Source of the DNA: Antedon mediterranea
Lineage: Eukaryota > Echinodermata > Crinoidea > Comatulida > Antedonidae
Length of the DNA: 64,000 bases
Direction of reading: 5' to 3'
Assembly: GCF_964355755.1 (NCBI RefSeq)
Contig: NC_092678.1
Span: 20,618,922 to 20,682,921, forward strand
Under the pieces are notes generated by a model. The model did no database searches. It saw only the letters and a program-made list of their open reading frames with translations, and had not been told where the DNA came from. A program made the translations under genes and the position numbers. Position 1 is the stretch's first letter. The number at the start of each line of letters is the position of its first letter. Of this stretch, positions 3,475 to 50,400 are shown piece by piece.

Positions 3475-3606
3475 AAAGCTCAAACTTTGTGTGATAAAAA
3501 CATTTGATGTGCCCATATATGGACATGATGATGTCATATCACTACCATATTTGGGCACATGACATTTTTTTTTGTCAAACTCGTTTGATAGTGTAGACAG
3601 AGCTTA
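3475..3606. repeat. MITE family B, copy 5
   Basis: The left end is shortened (AAGCTCAAACTTTGTGTG). The centre has GGACATGATGATGTCATATC, and the right end TTTGATAGTGTAGACAGAG is complete. Confidence 0.8.
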
Positions 3607-4068: not shown

Positions 4069-7000
4069 TTAGCAGCAGTCTTGTTTCATTTTCAATACTC
4101 CATTGTACTTCAGGCCACTGTCGTCATCTGTTGAAGATAATACAAATTGATGTTAATAATATTACATTAATAATATTATATTGATATAATAAATATATAA
4201 CAATTGTCCTTGTCATTTGATTGCATGGTTGGTATCGACTTAAACTTGATATTTTAAAAACACCTTTTGTAACTATCAAACCTTTGTTTTCACACACACT
4301 CAAAAGCCGATCCGAAGGTCTTCTGGCATCAAACGCCAACCAAACTTGCGTTTCGAACGTCAGTGTGTCGTTTTCACGCGGCTACGCGCATATCGATTGG
4401 TGCATAGCCGCGTGGAGCGTCGTGGAAGCGAAACGTTGACGTTCGATTTGATTTCCCGGATTCGGATCGGAACCGTACCGGAACAGGTGTGAAAGACCCG
4501 TTACACCTACATTACATGACTGTGAGAAGTTAGAGTTGAGAACCAAAAAGAAAAACTTACATATCCAGTTGTCCTCACTAGTCCCAGCCGTCTTGAAGTC
4601 CGGCAAACTTTTTGTCAACGAGTCCCAGTCGTCTTTACTGATAAACTCCCACGTTACACCATGATCTTTACTGCGCATGTAACTGCGCATGTCCATGTGG
4701 ATGCCATAGATATGTCCTGTGAGTTGGTCAGATCCAATGACGTTGTGCAGATTTATTGGAAGAGCTAATGAAGAATATTGATAATAGTGAGGTGTATTTT
4801 AAGAAATATAGCATTTTAACTTTAAAGTTGCACTCATAAAAGCAAATTGGAAAGGCGCTCATGCGCAGTTATTTTTCCAAGATATATATCCGAAACGGAT
4901 CGATGAAGGAACTGTTTTAAGGAGATAATCTACAGCCATGCTATGCTGTTCTATAGAGTAATTTTGTAACCTTGCATCATTGCCTTACCTTTCCATCTCC
5001 CATCTGGTGGATTATCTTGTATATAGCAAGACGGAACAACCTTGTCTGATAGACGTCCAAATGAAGGGTTACAAACAAAAATGACGTCATTATCTGGATC
5101 GTCCAATTTCTTTGTAATGACAAAACCCCGGTTGTAATAATCTGTTAAAATAATGCAAATACTCATCATTGTGTGTGGACATGCTGTGAGGTCACAGGTG
5201 CTTAAAAAAAATAACCCAGACAGAAACCAAACCATGAAGATGATCTGGGGTTGTTGGAATAAGTTTGAAGTCCGTCTTCGACATTTACTATTTCTTGTTT
5301 ATTTGAGTTGTTTTAAGTCGAGTAGTGTTTGTTTTAGATGAATTATTTTAAACTAAATTATTATTTGTAAACTCTTAACATTAAAATAAATTTGACCAAT
5401 CACAAGCACGATTCTAATCCAATCTTGCTTTCTATTGGTTGCATAATGTGCTGACGTAGTATTTTAATTAGTCATAAGAGGCGTATCTTCCCGTAATATA
5501 TTCAGCATAATCCCGAAATTTACCTGAAACTGGACAGTCACTAGGATCACTGACGCACACACTATGCTTCCCGTTTTCACACTTATGAGCACCAGCTACG
5601 CAAGAATTGCACTGGCTAGATCCTGCATCATAATGACAGGTGCTTGTCTGGCCGTTGGTCCATTTGCTGTATCTCATCACAGGTTCTTTTGCAGGGTAGG
5701 GCTCTTGGGTTGGGTTGGGTTCATCTGAAGACAAAATTGTTATTAGTAACGCCTGGATGAGATTCGGCAACCTCACTTAGTCTTGCCGAAAACTTTTTTC
5801 TAAGAGGCAAGTTGTCTATGGCGTATTTAGACAATGGCAGTCATATACAACTAGTATCAGATGTCCTCTCAAAATTGATGAAAGTCTTCGTGCATACATA
5901 CAGTTCCATTTTTCATACTAGGCCTATAACTTAGGAATTTATTGAGGATATTTAGTATATTCAAAATATGCAATACTATAATATAAATCAATCATTCAAA
6001 TGAATAACGCTTGATTCTGTTTTGACATTAGAATTTAAATTATATTGAAGCGACGAGATTTGGACCCTTGAGTTAATTGAATATTAATTAAAGATGTATT
6101 GTCCCCAAAAAACATTTAAAAAATGATTCATTTTGTATTGGCAATTTTGGAGTTTGATATCACTTAAAAAATAATGGTAAACTCAACCAAAAACCAATTG
6201 GCTGGCAACAAAGTGAAACTTGAAGGTTTTTTTTAATAGAACCCTATTTTAGAGTGACAATATATCTTTAAGCAATCAAGAAACTACCTTGAAACATAGA
6301 ATACTCGCAGATAGCTGGCAGGACAGCGGTGCAATCCATTATGTCCCAGTCACCAAGATCAGTACTGACATCCCTTGTATCGTAGACATCTACAAAAGCC
6401 GCAGCTCCGCAGTCTTCAGTTGCACTTGTTCCGGGTCTGTTTGGTAGCCATTTTGTATAAGATGTTAATGAACCATCTGTCCACATGAAAGTATCAGTAC
6501 TCTAGAAAACGAACATTGTTGGTGGAATAGCCATAAGACGTACGGTATATTATATCGCATACAGTTAAATTAATATTTTTAACTATCGCCAGGTTGGTTA
6601 CGTCATCTTATTAAGTTAGTCGGGAGAGTTCATTACGGTAGAGTGCGGCGGTTTTTTTAAGTTATATTTATAATTACCATTCTTCAAAAATATGAAGATG
6701 ATGAACCATACTCACCCCAACGTCTTTCAGCCCAATCCAGTATTTGTAAGGAGAGAGTACTGGAACGAGGACGCGAAGAAATTGCTGTTCAAACGTATCT
6801 TCGATCATGACTAATTGCGCATTGTCTGCTTCACAGGCCGCCATTGCTGCATCCCAAGTTTCTAGCGTGTGGTTGAACACTTGGTAACATGTTTCCTTAT
6901 AAGGTGAATAACCCGACCGACATAAATCTTTAAAGTAAGTAAAACAGTGTCATCTTAATAGGTAGAAAGTAGAATTGTATGTGCCCATCAATGGGGCGAT

Positions 7001-10000
7001 ATTGTTTTTTTTTATTACAGATACTGAAGTAGGCCTATATGGTACATTTACACCTGACGTAAAATACCAATTTACTCTTTCTCTTGAGAGCATGTGTCCA
7101 ACCGTTCTCAATATCACTTGCCTATAGGCTCTTTCAAAAATAAATTCTACACTTACCGCCCCCTCCAACATCTGGTCTGTCCGTATACTCAAATTGAAAA
7201 AGATTTGTAGAACCTAAAACTTTAGCGCTATTAACAGTCGAGAACCACAACAAATCAGCCACGCCAACAAAGCGATGAGTACCAGGAGCACTTTTTCCGT
7301 TTTTGTCGATTCCTAGACGTACACGGAATATTGGTTTTGCAGCAATTTGAATGGTTCCAAGCTGTAAAATTCATAAAAATGTTATTAAATGTTGTCCTTT
7401 ACGCCTGCTTTGATTTCATTTAGAAAACCCATGTCCATTTATATCATAAGTCATTTAAAACTTTAACAGAGTCTGCAATCTACAAGAGTGAAACAATTCA
7501 GACAGACCACACTTGACCAATAGGTATGAATGTATTCTGGGCATTTTACTGAAGGTCATCGGCCATTCGTCGCCCATTTCCTAATCTTTCAAATGTGTGA
7601 GCGCTGTAGTTAAACATCTAGAATACTAGGTTAAAATACTCTCCCAACCTTAACCAAGCAACTTGTGGGCCCTACACATAATTGAATCTGTTACTGCAAC
7701 CATTATTTTAGAATAACTTACATTAAATCGAACAGGGGTTGGTCCAGGCATGCTTGGGTTTACCGCTGGTGGCTGGAACAGCTCGATGTATTCTGATTCA
7801 AGGTTAATATATCGCACATTTTTTGACGTCATTATTGTGAAAGTTACATCTATTGCTTTTCCCGTTGAATCGTCATCGTGCCAAATACTAATCAATAGTA
7901 TTACATCATCACTAAAAATAACAACCGAAATATAGTATTATCGAAAACGGCCTAAACTTCAAATCCAAATTTCAAATGCCGCAATCTAATTTTCAAATGA
8001 TTTTGTACAAGTTGGTTACATTTAAAAATCTACAAACATGAACAATGATTGACAACAATCAAATACGACGAATGGAATTGTTTGCCATTTAAATAATGCA
8101 TAATGGTAAATACCATCGGCGTGCTGAATGTATGCGCAAAATCTATTACAACTGTTAATTAAAGTACTGTGGTATTAATACGAGGTATATAATTATTTCT
8201 GATAGTGTTCGTTAGTGTCAGTCATAACCATTTTAATTTATCTTATTTCGTTCATACAATTCTACAATAATAAGAACATTGCTTGTATCCGATACTAAAC
8301 TTACCCTTTATAAAAGGAATTAGTTTCGTATAATATCTTGAACGACATTTTAGGATTCGGGACTTCATTAATCAGCGTATGAACTGGTACCTCTCCAACC
8401 CAGATGTGAGCTCCGTCGCCAATCTGCATTCCAAGTCCTAACCAGTGCTCTGATCCATTGACCACCGCGTCTGTATCGTCTAGGACAATTTCAACTTCTA
8501 TCGCTAAGATGTTATTAGAAGCATCTGGGTTGCTCACTTCAATAAATCCGTCAAACTGTGTCCGCGACCAGTCTTTAAGAATGCCGAAATCATCATCGTT
8601 AGCAATGTACTGCGTTTGAGGAGCGTAATAGCAGAACTCTGTCGAATACGTACAATATAAGGAGTCACTGACATACGAAATGGACACCTTGTTGATACTC
8701 CACTGCTCGCTTGTCTTGTTAGTCGTAAAGTTGTATGGTAGTGTGACTTCAATTGTAGGATCAGCGGTACCTTTGGGAAACTCAACAATTAGGTTCATAT
8801 GCACCTTTTGACCAACGTTAACATAAACATTACCATCTGCAGATTGCTCAGTGATGTTTAACACGAAATGCGGTAGTTTACTGAAAACTGCGTCGATGGC
8901 CGCTTCTGCTGTAAGAATACTGGATTCGGTGATTTCAGCAGTAATAGTTACACGTAAAACAGCTCCAGGCTTTACATTGGCTGCAAAAGAAAATTGTATT
9001 ACCATTACTGAGACAATCCGTTCAATAAGTGGACAACTGATTTGACCGACTCGGTTATGTTTTTCAGTCGTTTTTTCTTTCTTTCTTTTTTCTATCATTA
9101 TTTTAAACAGATTTTGTTTCCCGCTTAGTCAGTGTTATTGGTACCTCTCCCATTTTTAGTCGCGTGCGTGCAACGCGGCTCTACAGCTCACTACGTTGGT
9201 CGGTTGGTCGGTCGGTCGGTCGATCGATTGTTTGGTCGGTTTACCGGTAAACACTAACTTGAGCACGTATAGCATGTATATGGCCTTGCTAAAGTTATGG
9301 TGTTAATAAATTGGGGTCAAAGGTCAAATGGGTCAAATATAGTTTAAATTTCAGAAAATGAATACACCAAATAACCTAGTGCAATCTTGTCATTTGTTGT
9401 TAACAATAGGGTTAGTGTTGTTTTTGTTAGGTGGCGGTGATGTATTCTCATTGTGAGACTCATTTTTTTGAAACACGAGCCAGCTGTGTTACTGTAAGCA
9501 TGGATAAAAACCATATAGGTCGTAGGCATTTAGTTTCTTGCCATGGTCCCGTAACCTCGGTAGGCCTACATACCAAATAAGGGTAAGTTTGGTAAAGAGA
9601 TCACTTCTAAAGAGTAGTGGACATAATAACACAATATTAATAACTTTGCCATTTCCACGTGATGAAAAAGTTAGCTATTTTATGAGATTTGTGGAGTAAC
9701 CCACTACATATTTTTAACGATTCGGCTGATTTCACTGGACTGGTTTCATGTTTTTTAAACCATGTATCCCTAGTTTAGTTTTTTTATAATATTTTTATAC
9801 CATTGACAGTAGAGTTGATGTTTCCTAAGAATTGAATGTCAGTTGAAAAGTATGTATTATCAGTAAAAGTTAGTTTCACTTCAGAACTGGATACAGCGGT
9901 GATTGTGAAGTCGCTCTGGAAAATAAAAATATATGTTTGGTCTAGTGGCTTTAACCTATTACACTGGAGAAAGATTATTTAGAGGGTTAGGTTTAGTATA

Positions 10001-13000
10001 TTTAGGAAGTAGATCAGCTCTCTTGCAATTCTTTATAATAGAAAATAATAAAGGTAATGCATTATAAATGATTTCTTTTCCTCATAGGAAAAAAAATAAT
10101 GCTTCCTTGTCGTGCTGTTATACTATTTAGATCAGAACATACCAATATTCCAATATGTATTATTCCAATTTATATTCCAATATATATTCCAATAACAAAA
10201 ACCTAACACACACACCCACACACACACAAGGAATCTTACCGTGGCAGTTGAGTCGGTAACTCCGTTTCCTGTCAGAGTCCAATTAAAAGGATCTGTAGAC
10301 AAATCGAACTGAAAAAGAAATTTACTGCATTATTAGTATTATTACATCCAACGGATATTTAGTTATTTTTGAAATTGTACTAAGTAATACAAATTGGTGT
10401 CGGAAACGTATACCCGAGATTCACATAAATTAAAACAAAACATAAAAAACTTGAAAATCCCGTTAGAGGAATTGGCAATGCTCGTGACGTCACGATGAAA
10501 GACCGTGCCTATAGACTAGTCGCCATTGCACCGAAACCACTGTAGCATTCACACCTACTGTTTAACTGTTCGTCAGTAATATAAAAGGCCGATGTTCCGG
10601 TAATTGTTATATAAGTACTCGATAAAGATTTAGAATAATAGCAACACGATGAAATCAAAATTTCAATATTGTTCTTTTCAGGTTATATACCTCCATGTTT
10701 TCAGCTGTAATGGTGACACTGAAGCCGGATCCAGATTTCAAACCGTAAGCTGTATAAACCATAAGGTCCGTTTTCACTTCATCCCCACTTCCATAGTATG
10801 TTTTCGAATCCTCTACGTTTGCGCTAGCATCCATATCGAGAGCTAAACCAGAAACAATACAGTAAAATATTATTAGTAGTAGTATTATTATTTTGTATTG
10901 TAGCAAATATAACTTTTCTTTCGTGTGGTGTCTCTATTAAAACTATGTTACAGTAACGAAACATATATTTCTCTGAAAATGAGTATTTGAGACAAAATAA
11001 ACACACACTATAAAATTTAAAAAAACGTTTATTAATGATTTTAAACTCAGTGGTTTAGAAAAAGTTGAAAATAGAACAAAGTTACACACCAAGAACGGTT
11101 ATAGAAGATGAAATTCATTTTATATTTTTTCTTTTCTATAATATATAAATATATAGAAATATCAGAACTAAATATATCCCGCAGTTGTATTGTTCATGTC
11201 TTTAAACAGTTCACACTAAACAATAAATAACATAAACATTACAGAAGAGGTCGCAAATGTGCCAACAAAAAAAAAGAAAAACATATTATTGATTAATTAG
11301 CTTTTACTTTTGTAAAATATAAGGGCTATATATTTTCGAATAAAATTTAGGGAAGTTGACAATTCAACAAGCACCTGTAATATCCAGAAAATATATAGCT
11401 CCATTAAACTCATATCAAGATTCTATTGAGTTATCCAAAAATGATAATTATTATTCTCCGCCAGGAGTAAAAAAATAGAGAAAAGGGGATCAAGAATGGT
11501 GATCAGACTTCTATTTTTGACGTACGGTCTAAAATTAGAAAAATAATGTTTAACAATTTGGTCCTGCAGAATTTGTATCTTAGTCTGGATTGTTTTTCAA
11601 ATTGTTTACCCCCATTACAACATATCTATCTGTGGCTTAAATGATCCGTCTTGTGGTTCTAGAATCTTCCACTAATATTGAAATAACGACTCGAAAGATT
11701 TTATTGAGACATTTCACCTGAAACAACATATTTTCAAGACCTGTCCGGACAAAAACCTCATCCGGTGTTGTCATACATCAATTTGTTATAATGAGTCGTA
11801 AAGTTACATATAATCACCGTTACATCAGGGAGTTGTAAAATTATTTTACAACTCCCTGATTACATTGCTACGTTAAATAGTGAAATTAATGCTTTATTTT
11901 AGTGATTCATTGAAGACAAAATAACTGCGGTTAAGCTATAACGTTCCAGGCTCACTCACTCCATGGTTCTGGTGGTAGGATGAGTCTTCTCGGATATAAA
12001 CCGTAGGTAAATGTACAAATACATCAATACCACTGATCATTAACTGGGCCCTCTGGGAGACCAGTCTTTGACTGAAGGATAAATAAATGATAACAAACAA
12101 AATAGAAAGTTTTAATTTCATGCAATAATAATAATAGAATAATTACTTTTGAAAAAATATGTCTCGAATCCCGTAGCATTTAGTCTACTATCAAAACTTT
12201 CTTCGGATAATATTCCCGTTATTCTATTAACTCGATATAAAATCCCATTGGTATGATCCGGACTGTACAGATAGTTACCATAAATGTTAATACCAGAGAG
12301 CGTAACTTGACCTATGATCGTTCTTATGCCAGTTCCATCAAGGTTAGCTTCCTCAACCACTTTATCTCTAAAATCATACCAATACATCTTTCCATCTTTA
12401 AAAAGAATGTATGGAATCAATTGTTAAATTTAATTACTTGACTGGAGGATATGCTTATTGTTATGTTTACTTTCATACTGCAGTAGAATAGAAAAGTGTT
12501 GGCTTACCGGGAACTGCTAAAACAAGTCGGCTTGTGCTTATATGTCCAGTTGTTACTATGGCCGTTCTTGTGCTCAAGTCATTTAACTTTGCTCGCTCTA
12601 TTTTTTGTGGTATCCTGTCAATCCAGTACAGGTATCTAAGTATAAGGGTGCGGTTAAACCTTTGTTACAGTTAACATAATACGAGTGTAATTCAAAATAG
12701 GCCTAAGAAGACAGGATACATTTTGAGAAATCGACGTTTCGAGAATGTAATTGCTACTATTTTTTATCTTTAAAAACTAAACATTGATTTATCAACATGC
12801 TTCTCTACAAACATTGCAATAGCACTGCGACTCATTGTGAAAGCATTGGTGTAACAAATCTGTATATAGTATTCACATTAAAGTCAAACCACAATGCCAC
12901 ACAATACATACTAAAACACTTCAACAATAACATCCTAACATCAATAAAGCTTTTGCTAAATCTCCTGCATAGGCCTACAGAAATTACCTCTGATGCATAC

Positions 13001-16000
13001 TAATTGATATTGTCTTTTGATATAAATTATCTTTATTATTATTAATTACACAACCAATGTAGTTAGTGGATTGAACATAATTTAGTTCTTTACCACACAA
13101 AATATTTATTTGAATTATTTTTCTAGTCTTAACCAAAATCATGACTTAATCGTTTATATTTAGCTTTTAATAGTAGCCTATAGCGATAGAGATATACCCG
13201 TTAGTTTTGTCTAGTTCAACTCCACGTGGATTGACCAAGTCTGTGTCAATCAGAATCGTTCTGTTCGTTCTGTCAAGATTTATTACTTCAATATTTCCAT
13301 TCAGAACTGATGTCCAGTAAAGTTTATTTCCAGGTACATCAACGGCTAAACCAACCAAATCTATTCACAAACAAATATCATTCGATTCAATTCAAAGACA
13401 ATAAGTAACGAAAACAATAATTGACAAGTTGAGATAAGGACGAGGGGACTAGGATCGCAAAAAAAGAGATGAAAATCTTGTGGCGAGACTGACTGCAAGA
13501 TAAATATGGAAAAAATAGATAAAAAAACAAACAAATAAAGATAATAACAATAGTTAATAATATAAAAAATTAAGTAAAATTGATGAGCAGACAAATGTCT
13601 TAAAGCTCAGGTTCAGGCATGAATTTTAAATATAATATTTGGTTAATTGTACATAAATCAAATATTTGTAACAGAAATCAAGACGAAAAAACATGACTTT
13701 CCCTTCATATGGTCAAATACAACATTACAAAACCAGCAAGACTTTTTTCAGTAGTTAGGTAGTTAACCTAATGTAATAACATGTCTGGTGATTCTCTAGA
13801 TGGTGAAAAAAGATGGTAGATATACGGTGGAGAATTTTTGCTATAGCATGAAAATAAAAATCTGAAGTTGAATAAAAATATCATTATTTTCAACAAGCTC
13901 GTGTAACACAAATAAAATCCCAAAAATTATGAAACATAGGGGAAACTATAGATCGATAATTATTGGAATGTATTGGCCTTTAATACAGAGAGAAAAAAAA
14001 AACAAATGATGAAAGAATTAGATGCATGGATATGGGGTTTCCAAGTGGCTGATGTCAATGGTAACTCAAAAGGAGTTTAACAGATGGCAGTCTCAAGATT
14101 GCAAATAAGGTTTTAAAATACGGGGTTCCAAATAGAATGCATATTGTAATTATACTCAGCGAGGTTATTTGCTGTTTAGTTGTGCTGCTGCAGTTACGAA
14201 AAAAAGTACATTCATGAATAGTAAAGATTTAAACTAAGCATTTCTTTTAGAAATACATCTTACAGTCTGGATGTAAATACAACAACTCCTCGTGATTTTT
14301 AGTGACAAGTGAATAGCGTTGAATGGTAGCTGGGGATCTTTCAGTCCAGTATATTGTTGAGGTATTGACATCATAAACAATTACCAATGGCATGATTACT
14401 TGAGCTTCCGGCGGAATTGGTATTTTCGTAAAACTTAAACTGGTGTCACGAAAACTTATGTTTGACATGTAGATGCCTGGAGGATTCATGTTGGCCACAA
14501 ACACAATCGAACCTGTGAAAATATAACATTTCAAATTCAAAATTATTTTCCTCTTATAAAATTATAACAATAAAAGTAATGGAAGGAGCTAGCTAGACAA
14601 AAGTAAAATACTTTCCGAGTCCAGCCCCTATAACATAATAATAGTTCAGTATTGTAATACAACACACATTTATAAAATAATAATTATAAAATAAATATAA
14701 ATGATCATTATTATTTTCTTGCTAAGTTTTTTATACGATACTACCAAGCCAAACATCTATTTAAATGATTTTAATTAAATGCAGTTCCACAGTTCGTCAG
14801 TTTAACCATGGACCTAATTTATAGGTCCATGGTTTAACGATTCCTATTGGCTGTTGAAATTGAGAATTTATTTTAAAGCCTAAAACAATACCCGCTGGAG
14901 ATTGGAACTACTAGATTAACGCTTGACTATTGGCTTCTTTGGTGAGCTTTATTTTGGCCTTTGTCTTTCTATACCCTCTTTCTCTTCTAAAATGAAACAT
15001 TGATCTGTCTAAACTATACAGAACAAGCACACAAGTTTTCTGATTTTTTTACTTTCGATGCTGTAATATTACTTTTTATATAACACCTAAATAAATTCCT
15101 GTCATTTGATTGGACGATTTTGGGTCACATGGCGTGAAATACTACGCACTATTAAACGATCGTTTAATAGCACTTTTTTCGTGTACGTACGAAAAAATGA
15201 TTTTTTTTTGGAAAAAATTTGTTTATACTATTGCCTTTGAAAAATACAACAGCGCTACCTATTTTGTACTTTCGTTGCGAAAGTTTTAGTTATGACTGGT
15301 TTCGCGATTGAATTATATTTTTGGGGAGATATATATGTAATAATTTAGGTCAAAAAGGCATTTAAATTAGCTTGAGATGAATTCCAGTTGCCTGTCAAAG
15401 TTTTGTATTGCTTTCAGCCTAACTAGGCCTAATAGGCCTACTAGTAGGCATATTAGTATAGGCTAGGCCTAGGCGTTTTAGCCTTGCTAGGCCTAGAATG
15501 GTTGGTCGTTTGTTGACATAATTATTAAAAACCAAATGTTACTGTATCAATGTGAATCAAATGTAGGCCTTGGCTAGGAATACCTTTTATTTAATTCAAA
15601 TGACATTTATATGTTATATATAAACAAAATGAATGTTTTATATTCGTGTACAAATAATGCAATTTGGTGAATGATGATAACCTTTCATCATTCACCTCAT
15701 GTCATTATTTGTACCATTACACTCATAAAGATTAATTATTTGTATAATGAATTGATATGATATAGGCCTACTGTGAATTTAGAGATATGATATACCATCT
15801 AATTTAAATACCAGATCAATTAAATTTATTCGTATATCATAAGCAAGCTAGCAAGTTTGTTTGTTTGTTTGTTTGTTTTATCTTTATACTGGGTAACCTC
15901 TTCAGTCAAAGACTGATCTCCCAGAGGGCCCAGTTGGTGATCAGTGGCTGTAATGTACTAATACACCGGGGTAACCCCCTACTCGTCTCGAAAGATGTAC

Positions 16001-19000
16001 TAGGTTCTTTAAAGTGCACACGAGCAAGTTGTGTACACTGCACCTACGGTTTATAGTCCTTATCCGAGAAGACTTGTTGCTTTAGTTAACGCTGATAATG
16101 GTTAATGTCCTCACCGAAACATGTCTGTTAATTAAGTTAAAAGTTATCTTATTTTTTATTTCAAACCGTCATTTTGGTAATTTAATTTCTTAAGTACAAA
16201 TAGAAGAAGGACTGCCGTTTTAATGACATATGAGACGGAGAAATTACCGAAAATACATTTATATATACATATATTATTATAAGTATAATTAAGTTACCAA
16301 TTCCCAATTTTATCTACAATAATTAGCAGTGTTAGTGCGTTTTAAGATAAACTAATTACTGTAATTGTGGATTTCTTTTGTGTTCTAAGTCCTTCCATGT
16401 TTTACCACCTCTAGCGTTTTTTTGGTTCCATAGTTACATATTGTTCGAAGTAATGAAAGTAAACTATTGTTATTGCTTCATTACCTCTAGGGATCAAATA
16501 ATTTTTAATGAATTAGTAAAATTAAATGAAATAAAGAATAAAGATAGAAAGATACGAATAGAAAGACGTACATTTACTGTGATAATAACTTTAAAATAAA
16601 ATGTAAGGATAAAAATAATTTAAGTTTTGTCACAATCATGAAACCATTTTCAAGATCAAATAAGTGAATAAAACAAAGTAAAGCTCTGTCTATCAAACTA
16701 GTTTGACAAAAAATGTGATATTTCCAAATGTGGTAGTGATATCCCTAAATATGGTTGTGATACGACATCATCACGACCATATATGGGCACATCACATTTT
16801 TTGTAACATAAAGTTTGATAGTGTAGACAAGTCTTTTTTGGAAATACCAAACGTGAACTTCCTTAGCCTACACCCTTTTGTGGTTTTTATTTTTTATCTT
16901 ACTGTTATTTGGGAAATAATTCAAAATGCTCTTTTTTTGAGAATTGGAATTCAAATTTCAATGTTTTTTCTAGCAGCCACCTACAATGCAGAACATTATG
17001 TGAACTTGTTTAGACAGAACATTTAATTTTTTTTTTATTATTGTTTCACTGTGAAATTGGGAATACATACGAACAAGTTGCAGAGAGAACACTGGATATG
17101 CCTAAATATGAGAACTACATTTTTTTAAACTTAATTTGGAACCTATATTAAAACGCAACCAATTTTTTATTTGTATTTTTATGATATATTCTTTTGTTCA
17201 TTAAAACATAATTTTTAATCCTAATTTTCCTTGGTTCATTTTTTTATTCATATAGTACCTTAAATGGGCACCAATTTAATAATAAACCTTAAACAGAGAT
17301 AAATACGTACTTTATTTTATTTTTTTTTTTATTTCATTTCAACACATACATAATACAACATTAATATATATATTTCATTTCAAAAGACATTTATTTTCCT
17401 CCATAGCAATACAATACAAAATAATAAACAGAAATGGTAAGGTATATTAAAAATGAAAAAGATGATTGTTGGATATACAAAAGAAAGTGAATTAAAGAAA
17501 ATTGGCTATGGAAGAAAGCATAATCCCGAGAAGATGAGGAAATCTTGTGCTGGGTATGCCTATGCAAATAAAATGGATAATAAAATAAGAGTGGAAATTA
17601 AGAGAAACAAACAAGACAAAAAAAATAATAAAATAAATAAATAAATAAATCTAAAAAAAAATAGATCAATCAAATTGTAGAATCAGAAAATAAAACTCAA
17701 AAACCACAGTAGATCAATGTTCAGCAGCATAAATCAAATTGTGACATTCGATCGTTGTCTTTTTAATAGTTTGACATTAGGTGTTATTTTAATTTAATGG
17801 AAAATAAAGAAATTGAAACAGCATTTGTAATTGGGGGTGGTAAACTGTTCATCATTGATGGACCGGAGTATCTAATACTGTTTTGAAAATAATTGGTGTT
17901 GTGGATAGGTATGTGTATATCAGTTCTAGAACGTGTAGGGTAATTGTGAATAGAACAATTCGGAATAAACATATTGTTTAAATGATTTGGAGAAGTGAAA
18001 TGCAGGGCAGGAAGTTTATATCAATGAGTTTGAGGAGATTAAGTCTGGAAAATAAATGGGAAGAATGGGACCGCGGTGGAGCACCAGATATAATCCTGAT
18101 AGCCTTCTTTTGAATAATTTGCAGTTTACTGAGGTTGGATACGTAAGTATTGGCCCAGACAATGTTACAGTAGCTCAAAAGCAACGTAACTATTAAAACG
18201 ATATAATACTCTCTCAAAAATAAGAGAGTAATGAAATTAAAAAAAAAAATAATGTATCGCAAAAGTACACTTTATAATAATCATTTTGTTAATAATATGG
18301 TTGCCTTGTATTTTTGGTAAATGTGAAATAAATGATTATAATTGAGTAATTGTTTTTTTGATTAACTAATTATGTACCACTTTGTAATTTAAAATTAAAA
18401 TGTTTGCATCACTGTATGTTTTTCCAAAACCAAAACATATACTTTCTTTGGTGATAATTAAGTTATTGTTGATTTTCGATACATATATTGTTTTACATTT
18501 TCCCAAATTTTCTTTACCAGATCACATTCAAAGAACATATGTAGCAGTGTTTCCTGCTTTTCCTTGCAAAAACTACACATTGGTGAATCGACCTTTGACA
18601 TCTTAAAGAGCATTGTATTTGTATAAATTATACGATGAATAAATTAAAATTGAACATTTTTTAGCTTGGTGTCATTTGTACAGGCGTCATGTAAATTTGA
18701 CAAAAGGTTTTTCCAATCAAGTTTGTTGTCAAACTTCTTTTCTCATTTGGATTCAATTCCAATTGGCTCTTCAACATTTTTTAATGTAATGTGTTTATAG
18801 ATATAATGACAATTTCTCGTTTTAACAGAAATAAATGTCTGTAATTTGGATTCAACTTCATTAGTTGTGTTTTCACCTTGTTCAATTAATTTCTGTTTCC
18901 AGAGCTTTGGAATTGAATTTACAATCTGGTGATATAATAAGAAGTCTGGTTTAAAATTATATTTTTGGTTAAATTCGTCTAGTTCTAATATTTTCCCTTC

Positions 19001-19534
19001 TTTGTTCACGATATCTTTTACATAGTTTACATTTTTAACCAACCAATTTTTTTCAACTTTAAATTCTCTTTTATCAAAACATGAGTTGTTCCATAAAGAT
19101 TGATTTAAGATGTCCTCTATCGTATACGGTTCTACAAAATTGTATTCACTCCACGCAGAGAGTATATCTTTATAGAACCTTTCAAATTGTTTAAATATTT
19201 TTGAAGATTTAGAAAAGTTGGATTCGAAAACAATATTTCCTCCAACCTCTTTAATCTTACTTTTTAAAAACACTTTCCACTTGGATTGATTTCCATCAAG
19301 ATATCTTTTCACCCAACATGATTTGAGAGATGTACAGTAACTCTTAATATGGGGAATTTTTAACCCTCTTTCGTCAAAATTGTTAAGCATGACTTTTCTT
19401 TTGACTTTATCGGGTTTTTCCGTTCCATATAAATTTAAATAAAATAAGATAAATACGTACTTACCGATTGCATAAGACGTCATAAGCGTCGCAAACGTGA
19501 TTATAAACGTAGGATCCATCTTCATCATACTCAT
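4069..19534 (-). CDS. Predicted secreted mosaic protein: YWTD propeller, beta-sandwich region, C-type lectin, Asp-box C-terminus (17 exons)
   Basis: My spliced model, 5' to 3' on the minus strand: 19534-19465, 14512-14264, 13360-13198, 12635-12508, 12395-12147, 10842-10691, 10308-10240, 9915-9801, 8980-8305, 7911-7722, 7361-7157, 6927-6716, 6501-6288, 5724-5524, 5141-4989, 4764-4561, 4127-4069. Every junction is GT-AG, every phase matches, and the total is 3309 nt (1102 residues plus stop). Domains: signal peptide about 1-22; LDL-receptor class B (YWTD) repeats 24-286; beta-sandwich-like region 287-755; C-type lectin domain 756-897; Cys-rich segment 898-964; C-terminal region with the Asp-box-type motif SKDHGVTW. 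A secreted or matrix lectin that binds ligand through propeller and lectin domains is inferred. I do not recognise a named family with this order. The weakest joins are exon 1 to 2 (across a LINE-filled intron) and exon 5 to 6. An alternative start at 10906 would split off the lectin part as its own gene. Confidence 0.7.
4561..4764 (-). other. Exon 16: Asp-box (BNR-like) module of the mosaic protein
   Basis: Acceptor CATTAG at the upper end and donor GTAAGTTT at the lower end; phase 1 to phase 1. The peptide includes HIYGIHMDMRSYMRSKDHG followed by VTWEFISKDDW. The S-x-D-x-G-x-T-W pattern is the Asp box found in sialidase, sortilin and other BNR-repeat propellers. Only one such motif is present, so a full propeller is not supported. 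Confidence 0.6.
6288..6927 (-). other. Exons 12-13: C-type lectin domain of the mosaic protein
   Basis: The two exons encode the classical order: C..GY.PYKETCYQVFN, WDAAMAACEADNAQLVMIED, YWIGLKD, WTDGS, WLPNRPG, EDC, then GDWDIMDC and AICEY. The four core cysteines are present. The first Ca-site tripeptide position reads L-P-N where mannose- or galactose-binding lectins have EPN or QPD. The WND site reads DWD. Calcium-dependent sugar binding may therefore be altered or lost. Exon 12 follows exon 11 in phase 1 and restores an Asp codon. Confidence 0.85.
9175..9275. repeat. GGTC-rich dispersed repeat, copy 2 (inverted)
   Basis: TCGGTTGGTCGGTCGGTCGG followed by ACCGGTAAACACTAACTTGAG is the reverse complement of the repeat at about 3826-3895. 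It lies in intron 8 of the mosaic lectin gene. Confidence 0.55.
10207..10230. repeat. CA microsatellite
   Basis: An (AC)n run with two interruptions, ending 10 bases before the donor of exon 7 of the mosaic lectin gene. Confidence 0.8.
11824..11860. repeat. Perfect 17-bp inverted repeat (hairpin, 3-base loop)
   Basis: ATCAGGGAGTTGTAAAA, loop TTA, then the exact reverse complement TTTTACAACTCCCTGAT. No tandem partner or gene end is close by, and a terminator role is not expected in an animal intron. Confidence 0.85.
11940..12085 (-). repeat. Dispersed repeat C, copy 1
   Basis: In reverse complement it contains CAGTCAAAGACTGGTCTCCC, then AGAGGGCCCAGTT, and later CCTACGGTTTATATCCGAG. The same order occurs on the plus strand at 15895-16072. 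The copy here is shorter in the middle. The small reading frame here (SQRLVSQRAQLMISG) is a translation of the repeat. Confidence 0.65.
12147..14512 (-). other. Exons 2-5: LDL-receptor class B (YWTD) propeller
   Basis: Four exons encode successive YWTD-type blades: STIYWTERSPATIQRYSL, NKLYWTSVLNGNIEVINLD, YLYWIDRIPQKIERAKLND, and GKMYWYDFRDKVVEEANLDG. The Val/Leu-Asn-Leu-Asp-Gly spacing is usual for LRP, nidogen and EGF-precursor propellers. The total of about 263 residues matches one six-bladed propeller. The chain starts SIVFVANMNPPGIYM, like the first strand of LRP propellers. The EGF module that normally closes the propeller in LRPs is missing here. Confidence 0.85.
14800..14837. repeat. 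Perfect 16-bp inverted repeat (hairpin)
   Basis: GTTTAACCATGGACCT, a 6-7 base AT loop, then AGGTCCATGGTTTAAC, with no mismatch. Confidence 0.85.
15648..15712. repeat. Long imperfect hairpin
   Basis: GTACAAATAATG and GGTGAATGATGA on the left pair with TCATCATTCACC and CATTATTTGTAC on the right, around a short loop, with a small asymmetry between the two stem blocks. Confidence 0.75.
15852..15880. repeat. (TTTG)n microsatellite
   Basis: About six TTTG units directly before dispersed repeat C, as is usual for the A/T-rich tail side of a retroposon. Confidence 0.8.
15880..16075 (+). repeat. Dispersed repeat C, copy 2
   Basis: Carries CAGTCAAAGACTGATCTCCC, AGAGGGCCCAGTTGGTGATC, an ACACCGGGGTAACCCCCTAC block and the end CCTACGGTTTATAGTCC...CCGAGAAGACT. 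It is related to 11940-12085 in the opposite orientation. The type of element was not identified; a SINE or LINE 3' end is possible. Confidence 0.6.
16680..16835. repeat. MITE family B, copy 6
   Basis: AAGCTCTGTCTATCAAACTAG at left (a short deletion inside the terminal repeat) and TTTGATAGTGTAGACAAG at right. The core has two 21-bp units and CATCATCACGACCATATATG. Confidence 0.8.
17780..18262 (-). pseudogene. CR1/L2-type LINE reverse-transcriptase C-terminal fossil
   Basis: Read on the minus strand it shows the typical end of such ORFs: YCNIVWANTYVSNLSKLQII, QKKAIRIISGAPPRSH, HLFSRLNLLKLIDINFL, then (after a frame change) SIHNYPTRSRTDIHIPI and NSIRYSGPSMMNSLPP. This is the terminal 'Y-G-N-x-V-W ... 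NSIRY-x-GP-x-W-N-x-L-P' region. At least one frameshift and no N-terminal part: a 5'-truncated dead copy in intron 1 of the mosaic lectin gene. Confidence 0.75.
18430..19452 (-). pseudogene. L1/Tx1-type LINE ORF2 C-terminal fossil
   Basis: The minus strand encodes KPDKVKRKVMLNNFDERGLK, IPHIKSYCTSLKSCWVKRYL, then WNNSCF and, past a stop in the same frame, RIIYTNTMLFKMSKVD and PMCSFCKEKQETLLHMFFEC. The last part is the L1-clade CCHC-like Cys-x-x-Cys...His...Cys tail. The reading frame is fused at its upper end to the real signal-peptide exon at 19465-19534 only because the intron happens to be open there. 5'-truncated and interrupted by a stop. Confidence 0.75.
19465..19534 (-). other. Exon 1 of the mosaic lectin gene (signal peptide)
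   Basis: MSMMKMDPTFIITFATLMTS then YAI and a split Gly codon at the donor GTAAGTACG. A short basic start, a hydrophobic core and a small-residue end give a standard secretion signal. Three in-frame ATGs (19534, 19528, 19519) all have A at -3. The paralogous exon at 1304-1364 can start only at the position equal to the last or middle one. The frame stays open upstream to an ATG at 19618, which I regard as 5' UTR. Confidence 0.65.
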
Positions 19535-20544
19535 AATCCTGGCAACAGTTTTCCAAAAATAAGGAAGGTACCGGTAACAGTAATCAAATACAATTACCGA
19601 AAATATCATAAACCACATTTTTCTTTACTCAAAAAGATATCCAATATTAATTTATAAATCATCTTAAATACCTATAACATAAAAATATTTGTATGTTAGA
19701 ACAGTAAATAAAACAACATTTATTAAAATGTGTTTAATTGAACACATTTTTATTATACTGTACCTGATTAGTAGGAGGTTATCAGGAACATACGTATAAG
19801 CAACAAAACAGACAATTTAGTGACGAGTTTAAACAAAAAGCCAAGTCGGTTTGCCCGGTGAATTTATTCACGACAATCGTGAGTGTGTGGGCTGCGCATC
19901 TGTATAAATATTTCTTTCTTTTTCTACTGTTCCGTGAGTTTCTCCATTCTCAACCAATCAGAGCTCTTGAAATTCTTTGTCATAATGTATTCAGAACACC
20001 AAGCAATTCGGCCTGCAGACAGTTTTTTTGCAGTATAGAAACGTAGTGTAAATTGTAATGTCACTAACGTTTCTATTTATTTAATTTGTTAGTTGGAAAA
20101 ATAGACCCTAAAAAAATAGCATTGTCTGCACTGTAAGTATAGACCTAAAAATTCCTACAATTTCTGGACGATAACTGGTGATGCTATCGTGCAAACAACA
20201 ACAAACACATTTCCCAAGTAAAAAAAATATTTTACATGCCATAGAAATTTAGCCTGGCAGCTAGTACAAAAGCTTTGGCGGTGGCCACAATGCCAAAATC
20301 TCTCACACACTGGGCATTAGTTTGAGTTTTTTTTCTGAAGATACTGATAAACAAAGAAATTAGCGCCTTCAAACGGTTTATACCCAATTCAATTTTGTAG
20401 AAGTCTGATCGATATTTATACTTTTTACCAATGTTCAATTAGTAACATTATAATTCATGATTGTAAGAAGGCGATTTTTTTTTAATGTGATGGTGAGAAA
20501 TATATTTCCATTTTCTAAAATAATTAAACATCGTGAGCATGTCT

Positions 20545-20692
20545 TGTATCAAGGCAATCTAAAAATAGGATGCTGACCTCCAATGTTTATCTGTGGCTGT
20601 GACACATTCAGTTCCACGACACCGCGTGTATTTGTTGCAGCCAGACATAAGATGTTACGAGTTCCTATCTTGGCAATGTGAGTTCATTTTCC
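20545..20692 (-). repeat. Dispersed repeat D, copy 1
   Basis: In reverse complement it reads AAGATAGGAACTCGTAACATC, TTATGTCTGGCTGCAACAAAT, GTGTCACAGCCACAGATAAAC and AGATTGCCTTGATACAAGAC. The same blocks in the same order occur at 45718-45963 on the plus strand. Partial copy also at 25090-25160. Confidence 0.65.
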
Positions 20693-20694
20693 TT

Positions 20695-22172
20695 TGTTAG
20701 ATTTCCTTGGCTGTATTGTGATAGTATCAGAGTATGTGGTTTAAATGAAGTACAAAAAGTAATTGGAAAATACACGCGTAAAAGATACAATGAGACTTCA
20801 TTAGTAAACAATGCAGTCATAAATGTAGTTGATGTGCGTAATGTATTCGCCAAAGTAAAGCCTAGTAAAAGTACTGGCCCTGATGGAATTGGAAATCGTG
20901 TTATTAAATACTGCAACCAAGAGTTGGCACCGATATATACCAAACTTTTTAATGAGAGTTTAGCAAGTGGTACAGTGCCCAATCAATGGAAAACGGCCTG
21001 TATCTCACCAATTCCTAAGATAAAAAATCCCAAGGAACTTAATGACTATAGGCCAATAGCTATCACATCCAATGTTGGTAAGTGCCTAGAAAAGATTGTA
21101 CTCAGGCAGTTGCTTGATCAGACCAAATTTTTTCTCGATCCTCTCCAATTTGCCTATCAGAGTAATAGAAGTGTTGAAGATGCTGTGCTCTTCCACTTAC
21201 ATAATATTTACCAACATTTAGATGTGCCTAAATCATATGTAAGATGTTTGTATATAGATTTTTCTAGTGCTTTTAATACCGTTGAACCTGGTTCATTAGT
21301 ACGCAAACTTAAAGAAAAGAACATAAGCGACACATTGACTTCATGGATATATATTTTTTTAACAATATGGTTCCAGTATGTTAAACTAAACGGTATTTTA
21401 TCTGATAAAAGAACTGTTACCATTGGCACGCCACAAGGGTCTGTTATCTCCCCAATGTTGTTTTCACTGTTCACCAGCAGTTTCAGAGCCAATTCAAATG
21501 AATGTTGTACAGTATAGTAAAATATGCAGATGACACAGTCATCACTGGATACATTACTGGCAATGATGAAACAAGCTATAGACAACTAGGGTGTTATTTT
21601 TATCACTGGTTCTGCAATAACAACCTGAAACTAAACATAAAGAAAACAAAAGAAATGCAAATTGATTTTAGGAAAATTACAGAACCCTTAGAACCTCTGA
21701 TTATAAATGAAAATGAGATTGAAGTAGTAAATGAGTACAAATATCTGGGTTGCATAATTGACAATAAGCTAAATTGGATAAATAATGTAAATAAAGCCAC
21801 ATGCAAAGCCAACCAAAGGATGTTTATTTTAAGAAAAATGAAGTACATACAAATTGACAAAACTATACTTAAATTGTTTTATAACTCTGTAATTCTCAGT
21901 GTTTGTTTTAATGGTAATACAATGCAAAAAAATCGAATAGGAAATAGAGCAATTAGATTAGTAGGAGAGCACTTACCTGATGTTGAATAAAGAAATTATG
22001 TTAAAAAAAGTAAAAAGTATCATTGATGATGAAACACATCTTCTTCACAAACAATTTGCTCTCATGAATTCTGGCATAGGACTACGTGCACTTAATACCA
22101 AAACAAAACGGCGGTTTAGGTGCTCATTTGTACCTAATGCTATACACTTATATAACTCCAGAGTACAAAGAT
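20695..22172 (+). pseudogene. Rex1-like (CR1 group) non-LTR retrotransposon, broken
   Basis: Reverse transcriptase motifs run in order: KSTGPDGIGNRVI, DYRPIAITSNVGKCLEKI, LDPLQFAYQSNRSVEDAV, then block A YIDFSSAFNT, block B TPQGSVISPMLFSLFTS, block C YADDTVI, and NLKLNIKKTKEM with YKYLGCIID after it. The layout and the 'DPLQFAY.NRS..DA' words match Rex1/Babar-type elements. A stop falls between blocks B and C near 21517, where a short run (AGTATAGTA) looks like a 5-base insertion that shifts the frame. Another break occurs near 21950-21990, and the endonuclease half is absent. Inactive. Confidence 0.85.
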
Positions 22173-44400: not shown

Positions 44401-47400
44401 AATTGTTCTGTTGCAGGATTTTGACCTAACCAATCAAATTTACTCCTCCCAAATCAGTGACACTTCAGTTTCAAATGAAAGCTTAGGTTAAGCAAATCTG
44501 AACACATTGCTGTTACGATGTAATTATAATATGACATTGCTGGCGATACGAAAGCATAACTCAATGGATCTGAACATACCCATAGATTACACATGTAATT
44601 GAGTTTAAAGTTCGAACATACACTATGATTTTTTTCTAGAGGAAAAATATCATTGTTTAAAATATTTTTCGTTTTTGCAGTGAAAATAATGAAGAGTACG
44701 AAGAGGTATCAAGAAATGAATACACAGCTGAATTGCAACAGTTTGTTGTCACCCATAAGCCGGATATTGGCGCAACCATCCCGAACAACAGGCTACGAGC
44801 AAACATCACTGCCGTCGCTACGGTAAACAACGGCAGGAAGGGGCTTGTTGCCAAGGAACGGATAACGGACAGGCAGACAATACTAGAGTATCATGGCAAA
44901 GTCATGTTTAAGAAGCAACTCCTGGCGCAGAATACGTTCTTTAGAGGGTGAGTTTTCTCATTTGTAATGAGGAGCGAGTACTTTAAGCCTTGTCTACACT
45001 ATCAAACTGTATGCGATAAAAAATTGTGATGTGCCCATATATGGACATGATGGTGTCATATCACTACCATATTTAAGCGTATCACTACCAGATTATAGTA
45101 CACACATACATATATACGACACATATTGGACACATCACACTTTTTTTTCGTCAAACTAGTTTGATGTGTAGACAGAGCTTAAGTCTATTCTCACTCTTGG
45201 TTTGTTTTCATTGGTAAAATAATAATTATTATTTATGAGTAAAGTGTATAAGTGGTACCATAAACAAAAATGTGATATCTACTTTTTGTTAGCCTAGCCT
45301 TAAGCCCTGTCTACACTATCAAACTTTATGCGACAAAAAACGTGTGATGTGCCCATAAATATGATGATGTCATATCACTACCCCATATTTGGGCACATCA
45401 CGTTTGTTTTGTGTCAAACTAGTTTGATATTGTAGACAGAGCTTTATGTTTAGACTCCTATGCATTTGTCCGCAACAAACGTTCTTTTAAATCCACTTCA
45501 GTACTTCAATTAGGATGTCATTTTTCTTTAATTCTTAGGGCATTCTATAGGTATATACTCAACTACTCGCACTTTGCTAATGTTGATATTTGTATCGATT
45601 CGAGAGTTAGCGGAAACAAAGCAAGATACGTGAGGAGGTCGTGTTCCCCCAACTCACAGGTAAAATTGATTCAACATTATTTTTTGTTCCTGGTAAAGTA
45701 GTTATGTAATTAGTACAAAGGCAATCTAACAACAGGACATTGAGCTCGCTTTGTTACGATGGGAACTCGTAACAGTCCTTTGATCTTATGTCTGGCTGCG
45801 ACAAATACCAACAGTTACTGTACAATTTACTGTACAATGTACATTTTTTCCATGGCCCGCGGTGTCTGTTAAGGGTGTGGAATTAATCGTGTCACAGCCA
45901 CAGATAAACCCTTTGATCTCCGGAGCTCAGCATCCTGCTGTTAGGATTGCCTTGGTCCTACATAGTTGTGCTAGTAAATTACCTAGTGTAAAGCTCTGTC
46001 TACACTATCAAACTAGTTTAATGTGCCCAAATTTATGGTAGTAATATACCTAAATACGGTAGTGATATGACATAATGTCTATATATCGGCACATACTGAT
46101 GTCATGTCACTACCATATTTGGACACATCACACTTTTATTGTAAAACTAGTTTTAAAGAGCTTTAAAGCTTTGGAAAACTTTATGTTTATATCCACACAA
46201 CAATTTTTGTTGTGATTACCAAAAACTTTTTTTCTTTTAATTAATGTTTATTGTTCAATTAGTCACTGTTTTTTTAATTATAAAGTTTGGCCTTTTGATC
46301 TATAGCATATCTATATATTTTACGAATGACGTAATAAATGAATATTCAATTGTAATTATTAATTCTTTTTACTTGTCGTAGGTTCTTCATACGACAGAGG
46401 GTGAACTGATCAGACTGTTTCTAGTCTCCAGTCAAGAAATATCTAAAGATTCTGAGGTTACAATAGCGTTTGATTTTAATTATAAAGAATGGTAAGAAAT
46501 ATCATCTAGCACATATTCTTTAAATTGATAGTCTTTTATTTGATATGATTAGGTACACTGTTGCGCAAAATTTTTGTGAGTTGATTATTGTCTGGGTAAA
46601 TTGTTCTCGGAATAAATACATTTCAATGGAATACAAATGAGCTTGTAGGCTGGTGCCCTCAAAAGTTTTTTCGATGAGCTGCATATAAACACCAAGCGTC
46701 ATTTGTTAATGAAGTAGTTACCTTAGGCCATAATTGCCCTTTGACCTAGCCAATATTTGTAGGCAAAATGTTCACTGCTGGAGATAGTCCTTGCGCATTT
46801 TCCAATTCCTATTTTCTGAAGTTATTTTACCGTTTTGCAGTACTTGGAATCTCTTGATTCCTATATATCTATCCTCTTTTTTTTGTCTTCCAGTTCTTTT
46901 ATTGCCATTTGTTTTTTCCATTTATTGTCGTTCTTTTTATGTGTATTTTTCATCTCCGTTTCATTTCTTTTAATAAATTAATTAAAGTGTACATCTAAGA
47001 TATTCTAAAATATTTTGCATTTTTCAGCCCTTTCCCTGTAGAGTGTGCATGTGGTAAAAAGAACTGCCCCATACGGAAATACCAAAAACATCGACATGAT
47101 AGCGATGGCAAACGGAAGAATCAAAAGAATAACCATATAAAGAAGGATGATTCAAACTCGTGCGGTACCCAATCTGCTCCTGTGTCTGGACGTAGGAGGA
47201 CCGTCTCTCCTCTGAGGGTGTCCCTGTCAAACCAACTTCAGGCAAGTGCCCGAAACTTGATATGCTTAAATATGCTAGTAATATGTTTAAATATGCTAGT
47301 GATATGCTTAAATATGCTAGTGATATGCTTAAATATGCTAGTGATATACTTAAATATTGGTAGTGATATGCTTAAATATGGTAGTGATATGCTTAAATAT

Positions 47401-50400
47401 GGTAGTGATATGCTTAAATATGGTAGTGATATGCTTAAATATGGTTGTGTTATGACACCATCATGTCCATATATAGGCACGTCACATTTTTTTGTCACAT
47501 AAAGTTTGATAGTGTAGACAAGCCTTTATACAATGAAGTGGATATCTTATTAAGCAGACACTTTCCTGTGAAAAGAATACGAGCAAGACATGTTTACACT
47601 GTGGCCCATTTACACTTTATTTGGTCCTGATGATGTCCCCTTAATAGGTGTTCCACTGTAACACAAAACTAGGCTTATAATAATAATAATATTGAACATT
47701 TATAAAGCGCTCTTTACCAGAGTCTCACAGCGCAATATGAAAAATATTACTATTGAAATAGGTGAGTTTTCACGTAATAAAATTATCACCTAAAAGAGGT
47801 TGGCTGCATATTGAGATAGTACTTTATTATATTACTGTGTTGCCATGGCAATATATTATGCTGCCATAGCAACGTTATTTAATAGTACAATACTTGTCAA
47901 TTACTGAAACAGTAGTATTGTGAAGCACCAAATTGATTTAGAATTTTATTTCAAAATGCTAATAGGAAAAAAAACAATCAATACTTTGTTATCAATTATT
48001 TGTTGGCTTAATTCAAGTAAAAATGTTTTAGTCTTAACGACTATTTCAGTCAAAGATGCTCTCCAGGTGGAATGCCATCCTGAGATGAGTAGTAGTACTA
48101 ATAAGTACAGTTTTCTTTTTTTTAAAAATTAATTTATAAGTAATTTTACTTTCTATGGACCAGAGAATCTGAATAAAAGATTGAATGGATGACTGAAAAA
48201 GATAGAGTATATACCATACTTATTTTTGTGTCCATATTATATAATAACCTAGATCCTAAATTAATTTTATTTTCAAAACAGCTTAAACATCCAGTTCTAT
48301 TTGTATTGTGAATACTTGGCCTTTGATTTTTCAAAATGAATTTCAGCTGTGTTGCAATATGAGCTTCTCATGTGATCTTTATGTCCGTTCACTTTCATTT
48401 TGTGGACGTGAAACGGAAAGCAATAATCATATATGTATAGTTATTAATGAACTATTGACACATAGCTTAGCTTCAATGCTAAAGGCCAAAACATTCTGAA
48501 TATGTAAGAAAATGAGATAATAATAATAATAAACAGGTAGAGTAGAGTAAAATATAAAAGTTGTAAAAAGCGTTAATTCATTAGCTATTTGTTAGTACAT
48601 TAATAAAGTATAGTTCTATACAAATAAGTTGTATTGCTATTAACCTCTGTCTACTCTATCAAAATGTTTGTGATAAAAAAAAATGTAATGTGTCCATATA
48701 TGGACATGATGATGTCTATCTGATAGGACAGTGATTAATTTACTATTGGTAATCCTTGGCCACATGTGGCTAAATTCATTTAAAAAAATGTAAAAATTAA
48801 TGTTTCTGTGTATTAAATTTTAAATTTCAGAATTCGGTTATTGAAGACATCACTCCAACTAAGATGACGGAAGAGGAGACGCAGGCGGACGTGGATGTCG
48901 AGACGGAGGAGAACCAACCGGAAAGCAGTCGTAAGCTGACGCGGGAGGAACGCAAGATGGAGGCAATCATGAAAGCGTTTGAGAAAATGGAAAGGACCCA
49001 AAAGCGACGGCAGCAGGCGCTGGACAGGCTAGCGGTTGCGAAAGACACCGAGAGCAGTCAAGCGAAGACAAAGACATTGGAAGAAGAAAGTACAGATAGT
49101 AATCTAATTTTACAGGTTAGTTTGATTGCTTTGATGGTTAAAAATCATCACTCCAACCTTCCCATTTTTTTTTCTCCACCCCAGTTTTTAAATGTAGTTT
49201 AAAACCTGGGTAACCAAAGTACAATGGGTGTGTACTTATAGATAGATTGTGTTTCACTTTCTTTTGGGGAGGGAAGGGGTTGCCCCAATCGTTTGAACAT
49301 TTTAATTGGTGTGGTAGTGATAACAATTCAAGGTTTGATACCTTTCTCAGAGGCCACTCTCTCAAACACTATCGAGAACATCAAAATCGAGGCACAACAC
49401 CAACGGAAGAGAAAATTTTTTGATACAAATAGACAAATGGAACGCACTACCGCTATAGACAGTACCACTATAAATAATTTCAAACAATCATATGACATTA
49501 ACATATTCAAGAGCGGAAGCCGTCAAATACGAGTATTATCTCCTGATTCACTTAAAGGTAAGATCACGTAAATGTAAGAACTTTATATATATTTTTGTCT
49601 TTTCTAGGTTGATCAACCTACAGATGACATCGCTAAATCAAATCTACCACAACAAACAGTAGAAACACAATCAATCAATTTAGTAGCCAAACTTCCAGCT
49701 CCCAAAAGGTATCATTTTGATATGTATAGTGTCTTTTTATACCAACTAAAGCCTTGTCTACACTATCAAACTTTATGTGACAAAAAACAATTTGATGTAC
49801 CCATATATTGACATGATGATGTCATGTCACTACCGTATTTGGGCACATCACACTTTTTTGTCAAACTATTTTGATAGTTTAGACAGGGCTTAACAGCAAT
49901 ATACTTAAGCAAAATACATTGATTGTATGCAAACAGACAGGTCTTGTATCCAATTTTATCTTTGAATTATTATTTTATTTCAGACGAAAGAAGAGGTATA
50001 ATAGCACACCAAGGAGGTATGTCAAATGTTTATTTAATTACAGTAGAACCTGTGTTTTACGTACCCTGATTTTACGTTCCCTCGATTTTACGTACGCTTA
50101 AAATAACCGATGACGTCATCATTTTCTTACATTGAGGGCGCAATTTAACAACAACAAAGCACACAAAGTCACAATCATGGCTGTGTCTATTCTGCTGTTG
50201 TTGTTGTCTGTGGGACAAGCTACGCACGTGCATTCCCCCTAAAGCAGCGACTGTTTTTATTGATAGATAACAATTATATTTTACACTTTATTTAAACATC
50301 GTACAGCCTGTATATACTGTACTTGTCTAGTTAGGCCTCACATCTTGCTAGGCCTGCTAGCCTAGCCTGAATATTCTAGGCAAGGCCTAGCTAGTGACCA

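Follow-up and report, generated by a model that had tools for sequence, protein, structure and literature searches.

Multi-copy secreted proteins that combine a variable with a more constant part are represented by the FREPs, Sp185/333 and the VCBPs. YWTD propellers are known from conserved receptors, in which they bind ligands. Their top is built from the DA and BC loops (PMC3066209), and in LRP6 this face is the binding site for Wnt, Dickkopf and sclerostin (PMC7585440, PMC10089208). Hypervariable propellers have been described among the fungal HNWD/HET-D/E NLRs, in this case of the WD40 type (PMC12222747). Here, we describe a gene of the crinoid Antedon mediterranea in which a YWTD propeller that varies strongly between gene copies is joined to a C-type lectin-like domain. 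The gene lies in a window of 64,000 nucleotides (NC_092678.1, 20,618,922-20,682,921; contig C9), and related copies were searched for in the 354 Mb genome (18 contigs), in which the sizes of the large contigs suggest about 11 chromosomes. In line with an echinoderm, a tektin-1 exon of this genome matched the sea-urchin protein (PDB 8snb) clearly better than its vertebrate counterparts (168 versus 134 bits; approximately 72% and 55% identity); the tektin-3 matches included no sea-urchin sequence and did not discriminate, and the assembly contained no mitochondrial COX1. Positions given without a contig are those of the window, and all exons are on its minus strand.

Gene model, domain content and copy number

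Rejoining the minus-strand segments resulted in 17 exons running from 19534 to 4069, with GT-AG splice joins throughout and consistent phases, which encode 1102 residues followed by a stop codon. This reproduces the single open frame of the original prediction exactly. Its argument that the agreement of 16 of 16 phases is hard to obtain by chance also held, as exons E2-E17 were all present in the same order and with the same phases in the four paralogs that were fully modelled (C9 at 20.57, 16.46 and 18.22 Mb; C11 at 17.23 Mb). All four showed GT-AG joins throughout and no internal stops, and every difference in exon length from the window was a multiple of three. Judged by these comparisons, the model of 17 segments is essentially correct.

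A whole-genome search with each half of the gene revealed at least 11 loci carrying the propeller and the lectin half in the same order and on the same strand. These loci are distributed over four contigs, with C9 harbouring the window copy and those at 7.8, 16.46, 16.49, 16.53, 16.56, 18.22 and 20.57 Mb, and C11, C3 and C5 harbouring one each. Together with the conservation of donors and acceptors, this arrangement supports the earlier assignment of both halves to a single gene, to which they very probably belong. Copies lacking the propeller exist as well, namely one adjoining the window (copy X), two on C2 and several at C9 12.3-13.0 Mb.

By sequence, the head of the protein is a six-bladed YWTD propeller. 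It is encoded by E2 (14264..14512; blades 1-2), E3 (13198..13360; blade 3, YWTS), E4 (12508..12635; blade 4, YWID) and E5 (12147..12395; blades 5-6); E2-E5 were assigned from the rebuilt model and the paralogs, E3 and E4 additionally from PF00058. As predicted, Pfam analysis of the spliced protein detected two Ldl_recept_b repeats (42.7 bits) and, at residues 778-892, a Lectin_C domain (E 8e-17). The absence of the usual EGF partner was likewise borne out, with no EGF and no LDLa match in the 1102 residues.

The propeller is followed by a beta-rich, unassigned region, here referred to as the stem, which starts with E6 (10691..10842; phase-1 acceptor) and continues through E7 (10240..10308), E8 (9801..9915), E9 (8305..8980), E10 (7722..7911) and E11 (7157..7361), all placed by the model and the paralogs. 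E9 forms its main conserved part (225 aa), with a dN/dS of 0.12-0.26 between copies. The original prediction had called this region a beta-sandwich, a fold that could not be established: no Pfam family matched either this middle region or the tail, a PDB sequence search with the stem returned nothing below E 0.2, and the AlphaFold model of exon 9 alone reached a pLDDT of 36 and was set aside for fold searches.

The C-type lectin-like domain is split between E12 (6716..6927; PF00059, PDB relatives) and E13 (6288..6501; PF00059, alignment), and its nearest solved relatives in the PDB belong to the mannose-receptor/PLA2R family. In six of six aligned copies, E13 carries R-P-G in place of EPN/QPD and W-D-I in place of WND (calcium site 2), so that the usual calcium-dependent sugar binding is not expected. 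The designation as a lectin is therefore appropriate for the Lectin_C fold, as judged by sequence, but doubtful in its functional sense, since the sugar/calcium motif is altered in all copies read.

The C-terminal part consists of E14 (5524..5724; linker and Cys-rich segment, no family match), E15 (4989..5141), E16 (4561..4764) and E17 (4069..4127), placed by the model and the paralogs and, for the last two, by alignment. E15 and E16 encode a conserved tail; E16 contains the one Asp box that had been predicted, a single SKDHGVTW, and E17 ends in MKQDCC and the stop codon, with the C-terminal CC conserved in all copies read. For E14-E17, a PDB sequence search gave no match at all. No hydrophobic C-terminal segment was present in the protein sequence that could act as a transmembrane anchor, and no other transmembrane segment was seen, which supports the proposed secretion of the protein.

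The resulting order of signal peptide, propeller, stem, C-type lectin-like domain, Cys-rich segment and tail had seemed unfamiliar from the outset, and no described match was found. A literature search, which covered subscription papers thinly and thus constitutes weak evidence, returned nothing relevant on this domain combination or on hypervariable YWTD propellers. The domain order is apparently new.

Several irregular elements were observed alongside these copies. Exon 7 of one propeller-less copy is repeated about 15 times at C9 12.99 Mb (L021, minus strand, reverse-complement positions 6863-8177; also L022), forming an 89-nt tandem array in which exon and intron represent one minisatellite. 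A copy at C9 8.70 Mb (L061, L081) comprises the propeller and exon 6, with no more exons within 10 kb and retroelement-like ORFs behind exon 6, and is likely truncated. The 86% identity of its propeller to that of copy J had been considered as a recent propeller swap between gene classes, which was rejected because the locus also carries exon 6 and hence belongs to the same class, as a copy that is truncated or interrupted. Within the window, a tandem coding-like repeat (LNMLVIC / LKYGSDM) at 46999-47502 on the plus strand is apparently a minisatellite and seems to be present near 3560 and 16760 too.

Diversification of the propeller face

Differences between copies are far greater in the propeller than elsewhere and are confined almost entirely to the top-face loops. 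Among eight close copies, dN/dS reached 1.29 (0.94-1.85) in the top loops (BC, DA) and 0.33-0.41 in the strands and bottom loops. The loops were placed according to the known YWTD strand order, and their classes were defined with the alignment already in view. Shifting the labels circularly along the sequence never performed as well as the actual assignment.

We further compared the codon models M1a and M2a in our own implementation, which ignores loop classes. For the same eight copies, M2a was favoured with a 2dlnL of 104.5 and placed 8.7% of sites in a class with w of about 7; all 22 sites with a posterior >0.5 fell into top loops. Gene conversion is visible in the family (among copies B, G and H, 98-99.6% of E2 is shared, as against 86-92% of E5) and can inflate paralog codon tests, an effect that is reduced, though not removed, by exon-wise trees, under which 2dlnL was 103. 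Dropping two close copies gave 97. A second set of eight other propellers, including that of the window, yielded 90, with 17 of 17 sites at P>0.9 in top loops. Refitting with looser convergence returned 90.6 and 61.3 for the two sets, and 2dlnL is hence best read as 60-105. In 25 null simulations, it was 3.35 at most. In a control with four copies, the stem, lectin and tail (E9-E17) gave 2.7, compared to 48.9 for the propellers of these copies; adding the window copy and X raised the control to 10.8, which is still far weaker than the propeller.

Of the 21 selected sites, 15 were common to both copy sets. Altogether, 27 hypervariable codons with a posterior >0.9 in one or both sets (15 shared) are located in E2-E5 (12177..14489, minus strand), corresponding to residues 32, 64, 66, 82, 83, 106, 109, 125, 126, 128, 149, 150, 168, 169, 193, 194, 196, 212, 213, 216, 233, 236-238, 251, 252 and 277. 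Strong diversifying selection on the top face of the propeller is well supported at the sequence level by these comparisons across copies.

An ordinary extracellular-matrix or adhesion family, in which the propeller loops drift under relaxed constraint, would be consistent with an overall propeller dN/dS below 1 (0.5-0.95) and with the pooled top-loop confidence interval spanning 1. Such drift, however, predicts w near 1 rather than a class at about 7, and neither the gain of 60-105, as opposed to no more than 3.4 in null simulations, nor the recurrence of the same sites in two separate copy sets is in line with it. We thus regard relaxed constraint as unlikely and diversifying selection as the better explanation. 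The propeller of the window itself is located on the longest branch, with approximately 50% identity to all others, and the window copy may have left the main family function.

Gene boundaries and origin of the architecture

Behind the donor of E5, the open frame continues for 30 nt to a TGA (approximately 12118), which is conserved at an equivalent position in the window copy and in copies A, B, D and E. This in-frame extension could point to one locus with two products, the full-length protein and a propeller-only isoform formed by retention of intron 5. As the extension and its TGA are not kept in more distant propeller loci, and as recent duplication alone can explain the similarity among the five copies, we consider a second product rather improbable.

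The same stop codon could also mark the end of a short secreted propeller gene, followed by an adjoining stem-lectin gene from about 10906, the two being copied as a block; the occurrence of stem-lectin copies without a propeller would fit this arrangement. Yet all 10 propeller loci compared retain GTAA at the E5 donor, whereas the TGA behind it is not kept throughout, and with distant copies retaining the donor but not the stop, the latter was rejected as the true gene end. Moreover, the acceptor of E6 is in phase 1 in all copies, no signal-peptide-like exon was detected between E5 and E6 in the window copy or in A, B, D and E, and no Met opens the frame at 10906. Two separate genes are thus quite unlikely, and transcription from 10906 only, which would have spoken against the original prediction, is disfavoured by these features.

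At the other end of the gene, E1 (19465..19534; MSMMKMDPTFIITFATLMTSYAIG) ends in phase 1 at an in-phase GT donor and encodes a hydrophobic core, and it was the sole good one among the upstream in-phase candidates in the window. These features agree with the predicted signal peptide. No homologue of E1 was found in the four modelled paralogs, however, all of which (4/4) carry a different, conserved signal-peptide exon in phase 1 ahead of E2 (MACWKF[VI]CFFLS..KG), and a relative of this exon is missing from the window. On the evidence of the window copy, E1 is a plausible signal-peptide exon.

Intron 1 contains an L1-like retroelement fragment (17296..19450, approximate limits, minus strand), whose A-rich tail and flanking 16-nt target-site duplication (AAGTACGTATTTATCT) were read directly; a retroelement-type ORF is found at 18743-19624. 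The fragment with its duplication sits immediately past the E1 donor, indicating that E1 predates the insertion and is not itself retroelement sequence. Upstream of the gene, the opposite strand also contains remnants of a non-LTR reverse transcriptase, distributed over two reading frames (20651-21990, plus strand). That the window copy is decaying or non-functional, as its long propeller branch, its own unconfirmed E1 and the retroelement in intron 1 might suggest, is very unlikely in view of 17 of 17 open exons, intact splice sites and a dN/dS of 0.14-0.26 for E9 and the tail against other copies.

In the exon 9 tree, all copies with a propeller form one group (82/91), whose sister is the propeller-less neighbour X (95/93); the remaining copies without a propeller fall outside. 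The propeller thus appears to have been gained once. The E2-E5 module is bounded on both sides by phase-1 introns, which, together with this tree, fits the insertion of a symmetric module at the junction of signal peptide and mature protein. A propeller module of phase 1-1 would have entered a stem-lectin gene that already existed, directly behind the signal-peptide exon.

Phase 1-1 propellers of the same type appear to lead other genes of this genome, as judged by the exons found downstream. They precede CUB and HYR domains at C3 13.79 Mb and EGF at C9 14.9 Mb. At C9 15.93 Mb (L027, L070; 15.916-15.947 Mb), the downstream exons match 7tm_2 and, weakly, GAIN, which suggests an adhesion-GPCR-like gene whose ectodomain carries a propeller. 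For a partner gene at C1 5.9 Mb, a reading by eye as D8C/VWD received no Pfam support and was discarded.

Proposed role and comparison with known systems

On balance, we favour the interpretation that the gene probably encodes a secreted multidomain recognition protein, one of an expanded family, with a diversified propeller head on a constant stem. The hypervariable BC and DA loops would form a face that, by analogy with LRP6, most likely binds protein ligands. The stem, the C-type lectin-like domain and the Asp-box tail would make up the constant part, most likely mediating a shared effector, docking or multimerisation step, the latter via the C-terminal CC. For the family, we infer that it serves the recognition of non-self, self or gametes.

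A wider and more tentative reading is that of a germline-diversified echinoderm recognition system, not described before, in which the YWTD head has been shuffled onto constant frames while its ligand face was driven apart; these frames would be the lectin-like secreted stem, CUB/HYR, EGF and the adhesion-GPCR-like gene. If true, the residues and copies listed here would offer a concrete basis for testing echinoderm recognition.

With the LDL-receptor family (LRP2, LRP4, LRP6, LDLR, nidogen), the protein shares the six-bladed YWTD propeller and a ligand face built from the same loops, and the head of paralog A matches LRP6 E1 (5e-37), nidogen (7e-28) and LDLR (1e-23). Unlike in that family, there is no EGF behind the propeller, no LDLa repeat and no transmembrane segment, and the top loops are hypervariable between copies. 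The mannose receptor, PLA2R and Ly75 provide the nearest solved relatives of the Lectin_C fold, whereas here a single such domain stands behind propeller and stem, with RPG and WDI instead of EPN/QPD and WND. Calcium-dependent sugar-binding C-type lectins share the fold as well, but their EPN/QPD and WND motifs are absent here. In contrast to the several Asp boxes of sialidase and sortilin propellers, only the single SKDHGVTW is present, in a region (E14-E17) without family or PDB match.

The genes show the hallmarks of a diversified recognition family, with multiple copies, diversifying selection acting on the presumed ligand face and an otherwise constant protein. This layout of variable and constant parts is shared with FREPs, Sp185/333 and VCBPs; the domains differ, and the comparison here concerns germline copies of one assembly only. 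The fungal HNWD/HET-D/E genes resemble the family in their many copies, concerted evolution and diversifying selection at propeller sites of the interaction surface (PMC12222747), although they encode intracellular NLRs with an unrelated propeller, while the present proteins are of animal origin and predicted to be extracellular, with a YWTD propeller and a constant lectin-like tail. If our reading is true, the YWTD family with its hypervariable face would be the animal equivalent of the WD40 receptors with which fungi distinguish self from non-self.
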